41,181 nucleotides of DNA from a virus: positions 1 to 41,181 of IMG/VR virus record IMGVR_UViG_3300015368_000083, one strand, 5' to 3'. A program made the position numbers and the translations under genes. Under the pieces are notes generated by a model that saw nothing but the letters and a program-made list of their open reading frames with translations, did not search any database and was not told where the DNA came from. Position 1 is the stretch's first letter. The number at the start of each line of letters is the position of its first letter. Below are positions 3,345-34,772 of the stretch, in pieces.

Positions 3345-3540
3345 GCAACCAAAAAAGTTTTAGGGAAAAAATTTTATACAGGACTGCGAGTACTACATTT
3401 CTGTAGGCAGATTCTTTGTATAACCCCGTGTATTCTGGCACTTACAAGCCTTTTTACAGGTCTTTGTAATACTACTGTTCTAGTCTTTGTGCTGGATTAG
3501 TTATAGGGGGAAAAGTTTTTAAATAAAATTTGGGAATGGG

Positions 3541-3711
3541 TGACCGGGCCCCCTAACCTCACCCTGGATCCAGCCCTACCCTCTAGGGGGGTACAACGCA
3601 TTTAAACGGCTTTCTAGGGGGGTTTAAGGTATAGCTAGGGGGGTAGTAGCCTTGCAAGTATTTATTGCGTCATAGAGGCTTTGTGATTGTCTGGTGATGG
3701 GGGCCCGGTCA
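3541..3711. repeat. 13-bp inverted repeat enclosing phased operator-like repeats
   Basis: TGACCGGGCCCCC at 3541-3553 is the exact reverse complement of GGGGGCCCGGTCA at 3699-3711, with 145 bp between. Inside lie three exact copies of CTAGGGGGGT starting at 3583, 3614 and 3635, spaced 31 and 21 bp, close to three and two helical turns. All copies point the same way. This looks like a multi-site protein-binding region. Confidence 0.8.
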
Positions 3712-11340: not shown

Positions 11341-11473
11341 CAATATCTCCTGTCATCATCAAAGCCCGTTCTATAACCATTCGAGGGTAAGCAACCCCTT
11401 CTTTTACTTTATCCAATATCTTCACCGCTAGTTCGTATGTCATGCTGGAATTCTCAAGTGTGTTATTACTCAT
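11288..11473 (-). CDS. Small hypothetical protein
   Basis: 61 residues from ATG 11473 (MSNNTLENSSMTYELAVKIL), whose A is shared with a TAA stop of an upstream short frame. A second in-frame ATG at 11443 is possible. Helical, with MVIERALMMTGDIDELL. Function unknown. Confidence 0.58.
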   Translation of the reverse strand: MSNNTLENSSMTYELAVKILDKVKEGVAYPRMVIERALMMTGDIDELLTQSTGQLRGQEPA

Positions 11474-11666
11474 TAGTGAATGGAAGAGCAAAGCACAGCC
11501 TTACCGTGTTCAAAAACAACAGTTCGCTCTGTGCTGCTTGCATTACTCATCAGAGTTATGTCTTCGCATTCGCACTGGACAGACTTAAAGCCCTTTCAGA
11601 CTTACCACCGGGTTCTATCCTTGGCCCACCTTCCCCGCTTTGGCTTGCTCGTGTAACGGGGTTAAT
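11473..11666 (-). pseudogene. Possible frameshifted small gene
   Basis: Two open frames abut. 11666 to 11556 reads INPVTRASQSGEGGP... GGKSERAL with no standard start. 11595 to 11473 reads KSVQCECEDITLMSNASSTE then RTVVFEHGKAVLCSSIH and ends TAATG into the next gene. Joined by a -1 shift near 11590 they would give one protein of about 60 residues. This may be a decayed gene, a sequencing indel, or only the downstream 25-codon frame (ATG 11550). Confidence 0.35.
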
Positions 11667-11824
11667 TTAAAACACTACCACTGACGTACCGCATAGTGTC
11701 CGAGTGGTCGTAACAAACAAAAAAGCCGCTTAACTAAGTACCTTGGTTGCACCCCTAGAAGGCTAGGGCAAGATACTTAAATAAGCGGCTAAACTTGTTG
11801 TGTGCAACGACAACGGTTTAAATT
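11474..11824. other. Intergenic stretch within the leftward early operon
   Basis: About 350 bp without a firm gene. It contains the structured terminator (11719-11814) and the possible frameshifted gene (11473-11666). I could not find a convincing sigma-70 promoter for the genes downstream, and no tRNA. Confidence 0.6.
11719..11814 (-). ncRNA. Structured terminator RNA with predicted loop-bulge kissing
   Basis: On the minus strand three stacked helices form one long stem: AGCCGCTTA/TAAGCGGCT (11782-11790 with 11724-11732), an 11-bp helix TAAGTATCTTG/CAAGGTACTTA with one G-U pair (11769-11779 with 11735-11745), and CCCTAG/CTAGGG (11763-11768 with 11753-11758). It runs into six T residues. A 7-nt bulge GTGCAAC (11746-11752) is complementary to the loop GTTGCAC of a 5-bp hairpin just upstream (11797-11814). 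The G-U pair is a mismatch on the plus strand, so the leftward transcript is the one that folds. Confidence 0.72.
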
Positions 11825-12193
11825 CTACACAGGTTTTCGCATCTCTGCCAATCTTTTTTTGATGGCATCAGGAATTGGTGCAGCCTTACCCCAATCTTGT
11901 TGTATTTTTACAAGGGCAGGATCGGCTTGTTTCAACCTCTCAACCCCAAAACCCTCAGGAATCTCTGCACCGTCCCATCTCTGTTGGTTAAGGTAGACCA
12001 ATGGCGCAGGGATGAAAGCTCCGTCTGACTTGCGCCAAGCGTCTGTAGTACACATCCAGGTCGTGTGCTTGATGATCTGGTCTGCACAACCATCATAAAG
12101 ACCCTTTTTCCACCTTGCCAAGCAGACAGACTTACCACCCTTGCGAACAGACCTGGGCCATGCTGACCAGAATTTCTCAAATAAATCGCTCAT
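11825..12193 (-). CDS. Candidate replication-type protein
   Basis: 122 residues from ATG 12193, with GAAGGA 7 nt upstream and an ATGA overlap with the preceding gene. FEKFWSAWPRSVRKGGKSVC near the start, then LARWKKGL and FIPAPLVYLNQQRWDGAE (about 65-83), are the pattern seen at the C-terminus of phage replication initiators, where a wHTH domain normally precedes. Here only that part is present. It may load or recruit the host replisome, but this is inference. Confidence 0.55.
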   Translation of the reverse strand: MSDLFEKFWSAWPRSVRKGGKSVCLARWKKGLYDGCADQIIKHTTWMCTTDAWRKSDGAFIPAPLVYLNQQRWDGAEIPEGFGVERLKQADPALVKIQQDWGKAAPIPDAIKKRLAEMRKPV

Positions 12194-33000: not shown

Positions 33001-33779
33001 GTTTTGTTAGTCAGTGTTTGAGTATCGGTAACACCAACAGCGCTCAAATTGGTACGAGCAGCAGCAGCAGTAGTTGCACCTGTACCACCACTTGCAATTG
33101 GCAAAGCAGTAGTCAAACTGATAGATCCACCAGTAATTGCTACGTTGCTTGCATCCTGAGTGGAAACAGTACCCAAACCAAGTGCTGTACGTGCAGCAGA
33201 AGCTGTTGTAGCGCCTGTACCGCCGTTAGCGATAGCAACAGTGCCAGTGACGTTTGCAGCAGTTCCTGTAACACTACCAACAATTGGCAAAGAGAAAGTT
33301 TTTGTGCCACCAATGGTTTGATTGTTAACCAAATCAACCAAGTTAGAACCACTCAACTGAACCCAGCTGCCAGCTTCTTTCAAATACATGGACTGAGGTG
33401 TTGTCGCTGTATTAACGTACAACTGACCATTGACACCAGTGCCGCTAGAAGGAACACCAGATGCAGTCAATACTGGCAAGCCAGAACCTGTCATCAAGCC
33501 TGGGGCAGACCATGACAAAGTAGAAGTGCTACGGGAATCAACAACAGCAATCGAAACCCAAATCAAGTTTGTAGGAGCTGCTGGAGGAGCATTTAACCAG
33601 CCTGTAGGAGCAGTACCAGTATTGGTTGTAAAACTCCACGAACCACCTGTTGGGGTAGCTGGTGCAGTAGTTGCATCATAAAAGATAAACCATTCAAAAT
33701 AAGTGCCACCAGAAGCAGCCCCAATACCATACAAACCAGTGGATTCTGAGACAGATCCGTAGAGGCTACCTGTTGCCAT
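30069..33779 (-). CDS. Tail fibre with S74 intramolecular chaperone
   Basis: 1236 residues. Residues about 1-150 form a beta-rich tail-binding part. About 165-610 carries repeated IANGGTGATT / GGTGVTT and NKTISG units typical of fibre shafts. Two modules with RLTSTGLGIGxSSPxxKLDV follow (about 700 and 835). From 1139 a peptidase S74 domain begins SDYRLK, with Ser 1139 and Lys 1144 in place of the known Ser/Lys dyad that cuts off the chaperone after the trimer folds. A C-terminal coiled coil (ELQSLRKRVAALEAK) ends it. It is the receptor-binding fibre candidate. Confidence 0.85.
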   Translation of the reverse strand: MATGSLYGSVSESTGLYGIGAASGGTYFEWFIFYDATTAPATPTGGSWSFTTNTGTAPTGWLNAPPAAPTNLIWVSIAVVDSRSTSTLSWSAPGLMTGSGLPVLTASGVPSSGTGVNGQLYVNTATTPQSMYLKEAGSWVQLSGSNLVDLVNNQTIGGTKTFSLPIVGSVTGTAANVTGTVAIANGGTGATTASAARTALGLGTVSTQDASNVAITGGSISLTTALPIASGGTGATTAAAARTNLSAVGVTDTQTLTNKTISGASNTLINIGNSSLSNSTVTVNGSAIALGSSATITAATPNNLVFGSQLSANANFNGSQQVNVNLLAVSTAGTYGTSNVVPVFTLNAYGQITNVSPQTITVDTSDISGTIGIGQGGTGANSVINARVNLLPSYTSNAGKLLALNAGATDLEWRAVSGVGTVTSIDVSGGTTGLTTYGGPITAAGTITLAGTLAVANGGTGVTTSSGTNSVVLRDASANISANSISEGYSNVAAAGTTTVLTVASVPNYVVTGSGGQTYQLPNATTLSNGANYVFNNNQSSGTIVVKNNSSTTVATIQSGGYVEVVLLSNATAAGSWDVHNQAPSNVSWSTNTFDYPGSITSATWNGATVATNRGGTGLTSFTANGVVYASSTSALATGSALTFDGATFGIGVNTLFDNAKELRWKNASGVARPVLQIYSDNNLYLDSEDGAQIYRTLGTERMRLTSTGLGIGNSSPTAKLDVTGTAAISGAVTLSGGTANGVAYLNNSKVLTTGSALIFNGTQLLVGPAGQQGGYAVQAANTNGFAIQNSAATGIASFFAAGGSIGLAAGDYAVINGSSGQIFGVSGSEQMRLTSTGLGIGTSSPAYKLDVNGNAQVGNATAGTNRALFINGVANKAGRIIFQESGVDKWYIGNGAASENGNFEIYNALGNNTVITPAGNLGLGVTPSAWNGYTALQVKAAALGSSGSEMELSASCYYNAGWKYYASSIGVSRYEQYNSIHSWYNAPSGTADTAITFTQAMTLSAGGNLLVGTTSDNGYKFATVVAGSASFQNAITMTNATDSDLSVRIRTNETSFINSGSTASFTFATNSTERARIDSSGNLLVGNTDTTGIGVSIFPTGIVRHNTNGTVFEQFQYASTAVGSITTNGAITVYNTTSDYRLKTVVSAVSGAGSRIDALEPIEYEWKAGGSRTRGFLAHQFQEVYAGSVTGTKDAVDAEGKPVYQQMQASTSEVIADLVAELQSLRKRVAALEAK
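31255..31287 (-). repeat. 33-bp identical repeat, copy 1 in tail fibre
   Basis: 31255-31287 is identical to 31642-31674, encoding the RLTSTGLGIG hinge of the two fibre modules. It contains GACCT/AGGTC inverted 5-mers. Such identity in a variable gene suggests recombination of fibre segments. Confidence 0.85.
31642..31674 (-). repeat. 33-bp identical repeat, copy 2 in tail fibre
   Basis: Second copy of the repeat at 31255-31287, 387 bp away, in the same orientation and the same reading frame. Confidence 0.85.
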
Positions 33780-33788
33780 GTTATTTCC

Positions 33789-34772
33789 TTATTTAAACGA
33801 ATATCGCATACTGCGAGGCTGGAATTCTGAAGTCAAATGTTGGTCACCGCCACGCCATTTGCCTTTGTAATTTTGATCTTCAATTAGACCATATGAGTCA
33901 TCAAAACGAGCCAACCATTTTTGTGCTTCATCTGTGTTTTTGTTCTTGTCATAGTAGGCTTCCAACGTGCCATACATATAACCTTCAGGAAATGAAGCCA
34001 AAATACCGTTGCTTTGCACAACAGGATTGGTTGCATCACCCGTGGGGCTAAACAAAAACGGGAAAGTCTTTTGGTAATACGCTTTGATCGTGACGTTTTC
34101 ACCCGGATTTGGGGTAAACACATATTTCTGACCAACCTCAGAAAATGAAGCACGAATAACCCGTGGCACACCAAATGGACGGATGTACAACTGGTCAATC
34201 ATTCGGCGGCGAATAATCTCACGGTCACCAACACGGTCATACATAATCCAAGGGCCTAATGAAGAAGCTCCTTGCGGTTGATTAGATGGTGGGGATTCTT
34301 GAAAGAACTGAATTGGAAACACCATATCCGCAGGGATAGGAGCCATTCCGTTAGCATCTGTTGTAAGAATGCTAGGATTATTTGTATCGTATGGGTCTGA
34401 GCGCAATGCTGGCAATTCAATGGTTCGCATCTTCAATTCACACAATTGAACGCAAGCCATAATTTCAGCAGAAGACTGAGATGGCAGTTTCAAAATGCTG
34501 GTTGGGAATGTCAAACCGTTCCAGACGCCATCTGGATCGCTAACAGTTACTGAAGTGCCACTTACGCTTAAGACGGCTGTATAGGGCAGCATGGTGCTGA
34601 CACCAATAAAGTCGCCAGGAACAATCAATGTATCGGCGGCAGCTGATACTGTAATAACTCCAGTGGTTGAGTTATATGCTGTTGCTGTAATTGACAGCGT
34701 AGAAGGAATTGCCCCTACCCATTGTGCTACACGACTTACCAGCGTATTAGCGGATTGAATGAAGAGGGACAT
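33789..34772 (-). CDS. Head-tail adaptor protein (SU10-type)
   Basis: 327 residues. Beta-rich N-terminal insert (ITATAYNSTTGVITVSAAAD... repeating VSGTSVTVSDPDGVW, to about 95), then IMACVQLCELKMRTIELPAL and GMAPIPADMVFPIQFFQESP, the helix-strand pattern found in phage adaptor proteins that join portal to tail. The later part has FTPNPGENVTIKAYYQKTFP and YMYGTLEAYYDKNKNTDEAQ. Position between capsid and fibre supports this. Confidence 0.65.
   Translation of the reverse strand: MSLFIQSANTLVSRVAQWVGAIPSTLSITATAYNSTTGVITVSAAADTLIVPGDFIGVSTMLPYTAVLSVSGTSVTVSDPDGVWNGLTFPTSILKLPSQSSAEIMACVQLCELKMRTIELPALRSDPYDTNNPSILTTDANGMAPIPADMVFPIQFFQESPPSNQPQGASSLGPWIMYDRVGDREIIRRRMIDQLYIRPFGVPRVIRASFSEVGQKYVFTPNPGENVTIKAYYQKTFPFLFSPTGDATNPVVQSNGILASFPEGYMYGTLEAYYDKNKNTDEAQKWLARFDDSYGLIEDQNYKGKWRGGDQHLTSEFQPRSMRYSFK

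Follow-up and report, generated by a model that had tools for sequence, protein, structure and literature searches.

The packaging RNA (pRNA) of phage phi29 contains a three-way junction and is not a terminator; two stretches that it leaves unpaired, in two hairpin loops, are complementary to each other and covary among relatives, and they pair between molecules in a ring on the packaging motor. The lambda 6S leader RNA and oop RNA are short and possess their own promoter and intrinsic terminator, and to our knowledge they have no conserved loop-bulge pseudoknot. Other RNAs act through different arrangements, e.g., the HK022 put RNA hairpins of the phage early region suppress termination in cis, and the ToxI antitoxin RNA of type III systems is encoded as a tandem-repeat array beside the toxin gene. 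GOLLD RNA was named partly for lake sequences. GOLLD and ROOL are phage RNAs of unknown function that contain kissing loops (PMC12286853), a feature shared by the RNA of this study.

The small RNA (sRNA) analyzed here resembles phi29 pRNA in being a phage-encoded structured RNA of ~100-170 nt with two such covarying complementary stretches, but its consensus lacks the three-way junction and consists of one hairpin and one bulged terminator stem, with a spacing that favours intramolecular pairing. GOLLD and ROOL are several times larger and often lie beside tRNA genes, and their Rfam models did not match the sRNA. With lambda 6S and oop, the sRNA shares a short length, a promoter and terminator, and a lambda-like genome plan, and unlike the put RNA it ends in a terminator itself. 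It is predicted to be a compact pseudoknotted RNA like ToxI; unlike ToxI, it is present as one unit per genome, is not part of a tandem-repeat array, and has varying neighbours (replication, terminase-like, scaffold-like, and other genes).

Fold and transcription signals in the window

The window is the IMG/VR virus record IMGVR_UViG_3300015368_000083 (41,181 bases), in which the sRNA is read on the minus strand. The following features were read from the sequence unless another basis is given.

11825..12193, minus strand: upstream gene for a 122-aa replication-initiation-protein-like product (phrog_9474, E 6e-13; phrog_270)
11846..11851, minus strand: -35 box TTGGCA, within the 3' end of this replication-initiator-like gene
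11822..11827, minus strand: -10 box TAGAAT, overlapping the upstream gene's TAG stop codon
11719..11814, minus strand: whole sRNA (class I), 96 nt (covariance model match, 80 bits)
11797..11814, minus strand: hairpin 1, 5 bp and an 8-nt loop, GTTGT-CGTTGCAC-ACAAC
11802..11808, minus strand: loop 7-mer GTTGCAC, 5' strand of the kissing helix (sequence and alignment)
11746..11752, minus strand: 7-nt bulge GTGCAAC, 3' strand of the kissing helix (sequence and alignment)
11719..11790, minus strand: long terminator stem comprising P2, mismatch, P3, P4, bulge, and U6 (sequence and fold)
11790-11782 with 11724-11732, minus strand: P2, 9 bp
11780-11769 with 11734-11745, minus strand: P3, 11-12 bp
11768-11763 with 11758-11753, minus strand: P4, 6 bp
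11724-11719, minus strand: U6 tail

The initial annotation had described a leftward transcript with a three-part terminator stem of 9, 11, and 6 bp, a U6 tail, and a loop exactly complementary to the bulge. This reading agrees with the sequence features, which are conserved in relatives, with a middle helix of 11-12 bp that is separated from P2 by a single U.U mismatch on the minus strand. The G-U pairing that had been called specific to the leftward strand was located in the U-G pairs 11780/11734 and 11773/11741, which form on the minus strand only. The MFE fold reproduced the stem and the bulge, while hairpin 1 was lost to competing pairs; the fold energy of the window sRNA has a z-score of -5.3, and none of 200 shuffles was equally stable.

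The -35 and -10 boxes of the window are separated by an 18-nt spacer. In 90 of 90 non-redundant copies the best -10 hexamer begins at -12 or -13 from hairpin 1's first G; these 90 upstream regions usually also have a -35 box at the right distance, with summed -35/-10 scores of mostly 9-12 versus 5-8 after shuffling. A transcript start at 11814, this first G, is thus strongly indicated. It is likewise strongly indicated that the transcript ends at the U-tract via the predicted terminator, i.e., a GC-rich hairpin with a 9-bp closing stem followed by U6; the U-run is present in all aligned copies. By these sequence signals the element has its own promoter at the 5' end and its own terminator, as a stand-alone sRNA gene should. 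The promoter had been overlooked in the initial annotation, and its presence is the reason for regarding the element as a putative gene; the fixed -10 position argues that it is more than an operon terminator, namely, a discrete sRNA gene. In three relatives, L012, L014, and L016, the upstream operon is closed by a terminator-like hairpin of its own before the sRNA promoter.

Relatives and the loop-bulge helix

Copies were first reached via homologues of the upstream 122-aa gene, and further copies were obtained from pattern scans of IMG/VR; all copy totals are lower bounds. A Python detector, which found candidates without using loop-bulge complementarity but required at least 6 of 7 pairs for the final list, yielded at least 127 distinct copies. 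On uncultivated viral contigs, a covariance model built from a 79-copy alignment with the loop-bulge helix left out found at least 140 complete, distinct copies. Many lake and freshwater phages carry the sRNA. Exactly one site was found by the model in the window and in 40 of 44 longer records, extra matches on the opposite strand being palindrome shadows, and by this comparison the sRNA appears to be a single-copy gene per phage. A further copy (loop GTAACGG, bulge CCGTTAC) lies unannotated at 33511-33608 of MW202484.1, a complete circular 41,762-bp uncultured phage genome in GenBank. In the same genome an annotated hypothetical CDS at 33533-33892, probably spurious, overlaps the sRNA and the RNA2 block that follows it.

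No family in Rfam 15 reached its gathering threshold anywhere in the window, with nothing plausible even at E values up to 5, or matched the sRNA in 15 relatives, in line with the earlier statement that the RNA belongs to no known family. By blastn, which is weak for such RNAs, no match was found for sRNA copies or RNA2 blocks in cultured phages, or for one sRNA copy in plasmids. A single pattern scan across 84,980 prokaryotic genomes gave a sole match that lacks the hairpin and the terminator and was rejected as chance. Literature searches found no published description of this sRNA, and the phage RNA family is apparently without an earlier description.

In the 79-copy alignment, hairpin 1 is paired in 100% of cells and P2/P3 in 98.6%. 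The full 7-bp loop-bulge pairing, counting G-U, is present in 78 of the 79 copies, compared with a mean of 7.7 and a maximum of 18 when bulges were permuted; it comprises 550 Watson-Crick and 2 G-U pairs among 553 cells, and 6 of its 7 pairs have changed on both sides. The covariation score of this helix is 0.506, versus 0.186 for shuffled and at most 0.133 for slid controls. Among the 140 copies retrieved by the covariance model, which use 40 different loop 7-mers, 135 match perfectly at 7/7, whereas loops dealt at random gave a mean of 10.7 and a maximum of 20. The imperfect copies include L001 and L006, in which six bases pair in a shifted register, and L114, with one G-U. An uncompensated change of loop or bulge in related phages would have spoken against the proposed kissing interaction, and a true break was found in only two of the 140 copies (L083 and L031), which by appearance may be recombinants. 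The kissing or pseudoknotted pairing that had been proposed is confirmed and conserved, with 135 perfect matches drawn from ~40 sequences, and the fold, pseudoknot, and covariation are established as far as comparison can do so.

The loop-bulge helix evolves faster than the other helices and yet remains Watson-Crick. In copies that are 10-20% divergent elsewhere, 28% of the kissing pairs are altered on both sides versus 3.6% in the other helices, and the G-U share is 0.4% in the kissing helix compared with 17% in hairpin 1 and 8% in P2/P3. In the flanks, neither matches nor complements of the loop 7-mer exceeded permuted controls.

The geometry of the copies bears on how loop and bulge would meet. 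The linker from hairpin 1 to the stem spans 5-10 nt. Below the bulge, the 3' strand (lower stem) measures 21-25 nt, mostly 22-23 nt, and its length is not significantly correlated with that of the linker, while the apical arm (P4) ranges from 33 to 65 nt. Two turns of an A-form helix take ~22 bp, and the bulge would therefore face the same side as the tethered hairpin; the near-constant lower stem thus favours an intramolecular pseudoknot.

The genes preceding the sRNA vary between phages and include replication-initiator, terminase-like, scaffold-like, and other genes ("terminase-like" and "scaffold-like" being our own reading of the sequences). In the pair L004-L005 identity is 85% upstream, 62% in the sRNA, and 96% downstream; in the pair L004-L008 the values are 91%, 69%, and 52%. 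Such comparisons show close phage relatives swapping the sRNA while the flanks stay, and the sRNA and the downstream RNA2 block are exchanged independently.

RNA2 blocks and other elements of the slot

RNA2-like blocks lie directly downstream of the sRNA in nearly all of the 114 copies examined, at different genomic places. They are non-coding, 250-400 nt long, and fall into several sequence families. In the window they are represented by:

11430..11712, minus strand: structured non-coding block, RNA2 type A (consensus fold)
11550-11542 and 11473-11465, minus strand: direct repeat ATGAGTAAT

With RNAalifold, the type A consensus of 14 sequences folds at -37.9 kcal/mol versus -5.4 kcal/mol after column shuffling, although its single-sequence energy is not unusual. 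By the same column-shuffle comparison, conserved structure is found in type A and two other RNA2 types and much less in the most abundant type. Only one of the RNA2 blocks matched a known motif, namely, that of L131 (3442-3558, minus strand), which contains a Betaproteobacteria-1 RNA (RF02932, 83 bits), a motif reportedly described in a 2017 paper. Between sRNA and RNA2 no promoter scored above shuffled sequence (6.9 versus 7.1), and no sRNA-RNA2 pairing exceeded permutation. Several blocks, i.e., those of the window and of L010, L116, L123, and L189, carry a short direct repeat inside the block, after GGCTCC or an equivalent, and again at the block end, after CACC/CACT near the start of the next gene. 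This repeat varies between phages and agrees within a phage (mean 6.9 nt versus 2.7 permuted), and no third segment pairing with it was found above permutation. A replication origin downstream was considered and rejected: although the first 300 nt contain 9 DnaA boxes, a mild enrichment, these occur in few loci and not in the block of the window. Small HNH endonuclease-like ORFs were noted by eye downstream of RNA2 in L010, L123, L127, and L129.

In 18 distinct copies, the sRNA slot behind the same kind of promoter is occupied by a class II RNA of ~150 nt, whose carriers include L017, L020, L026, L030, and L077. Positions are, for example:

L017:2476, L026:2476, L030:2412, and L077:2467, plus strand: class II sRNA

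Class II is nearly invariant except at two segments that vary in concert, an 8-10-nt 5'-proximal stretch and the apical part of the terminator stem that is complementary to it (TGAAAGCAAT, TGAACGGAAT, TGAATCAACT, and TGAAAACGAT among the examples). Class I and class II have unrelated-looking architectures that both contain a fast-changing, compensated long-range helix. In L021 the slot (3405-3600, plus strand) contains a third kind of RNA-like element, which is longer, has a promoter and a terminator, and carries the complementary segments AGTGAGAGA/TCTCTCACT. Separately, L085, L128, L142, L206, L088, L193, and L115 have inserts of 110-190 nt between the sRNA terminator and RNA2, bounded by long inverted repeats; the L115 insert looked tRNA-like by eye, and ARAGORN detected no tRNA genes in it.

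Candidate functions and implications

Among the roles initially offered, i.e., attenuator, exonuclease block, or small RNA, the last is the best supported, given the promoter, start, terminator, single copy, and varied genomic places. We give an about even chance to an autonomous, trans-acting, probably protein-binding phage RNA. Transcription from a sigma-70-type promoter would begin at the first G of hairpin 1 and stop at the long stem and its U-tract, yielding an RNA of ~92-128 nt. Hairpin 1, tethered by 5-10 nt, would fold back along the 22-23-nt lower stem, and its loop would reach the bulge, some two helical turns higher, and dock there. The result would be a compact pseudoknot of two rods that protects both ends. 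Such a stable RNA may target a host protein by binding, be it as a decoy, inhibitor, or cofactor, possibly in host takeover or counter-defence. Protein binding is preferred because the alignment appears to contain no conserved unpaired antisense seed, while the outer stems keep sequence motifs. The absence of a flanking target for the loop 7-mer, the promoter at a fixed distance, and the varied gene neighbours are counted in favour of action in trans.

The main rival, ranking next and somewhat unlikely in our estimate, is a cis-acting leader for RNA2, in which a promoter, a conditional terminator, RNA2, and genes follow each other and the pseudoknot sets read-through into RNA2 and the operon, modelled on the short leader RNA made ahead of a late-gene antitermination site. 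A link in cis is suggested by the RNA2-like blocks that follow nearly all copies at different genomic places without an evident promoter of their own, which speaks against action in trans. However, a consensus-like start combined with a strong-looking terminator should make the short RNA dominate, the sRNA and RNA2 are exchanged independently (L004-L008), and the loop 7-mer has no alternative pairing partner nearby. It is improbable, in our view, that the element is an ordinary terminator whose stabilising pseudoknot does no more than protect the upstream mRNA or RNA end and whose variable helix simply lacks constraint. An operon section does end here in what looks like a good terminator, and the slower change of the other helices may be due solely to their sequence being read; nevertheless, the element's own promoter at a fixed distance, its single copy per genome, and a G-U share in the kissing helix far below that of the other helices, unlike slow neutral drift, argue otherwise.

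Very improbable is an intermolecular loop-bulge pairing that assembles the RNA into dimers or rings, by analogy with phi29 packaging RNA and the GOLLD/ROOL cages, with the variation giving phage-specific assemblies. Natural RNA homo-oligomers formed via kissing loops exist (PMC12286853), the helix is hypervariable yet self-matching, and the sRNA lies near a terminase-like gene in some phages. The near-constant 22-23-nt spacing and the short linker instead fit an intramolecular fold, and sharing of a loop "barcode" within one sample is not avoided: the rate of sharing between co-resident phages (4 of 43 pairs, 9.3%) is about that of any pair (7.8%). It is doubtful, but conceivable, that the self-matching variable helix in two architecturally different, otherwise more conserved sRNAs of one genomic slot reflects diversifying selection for a private self-pairing code. 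If true, this code might, e.g., keep RNA assemblies unmixed or allow escape from an RNA-reading host defence, and its module would additionally contain large structured RNAs that can be exchanged.

From a single window, this sRNA adds a widespread, apparently undescribed family of phage RNA genes that is very strongly supported by covariation. It also illustrates that phage RNA genes are poorly annotated, as the copy in MW202484.1 is unannotated and partly covered by a hypothetical CDS. The fast-changing matched helix offers a clean experimental handle, since it can be broken and then restored. The RNA2 blocks linked to the sRNA point to a more extensive RNA module among phages that infect freshwater bacteria.
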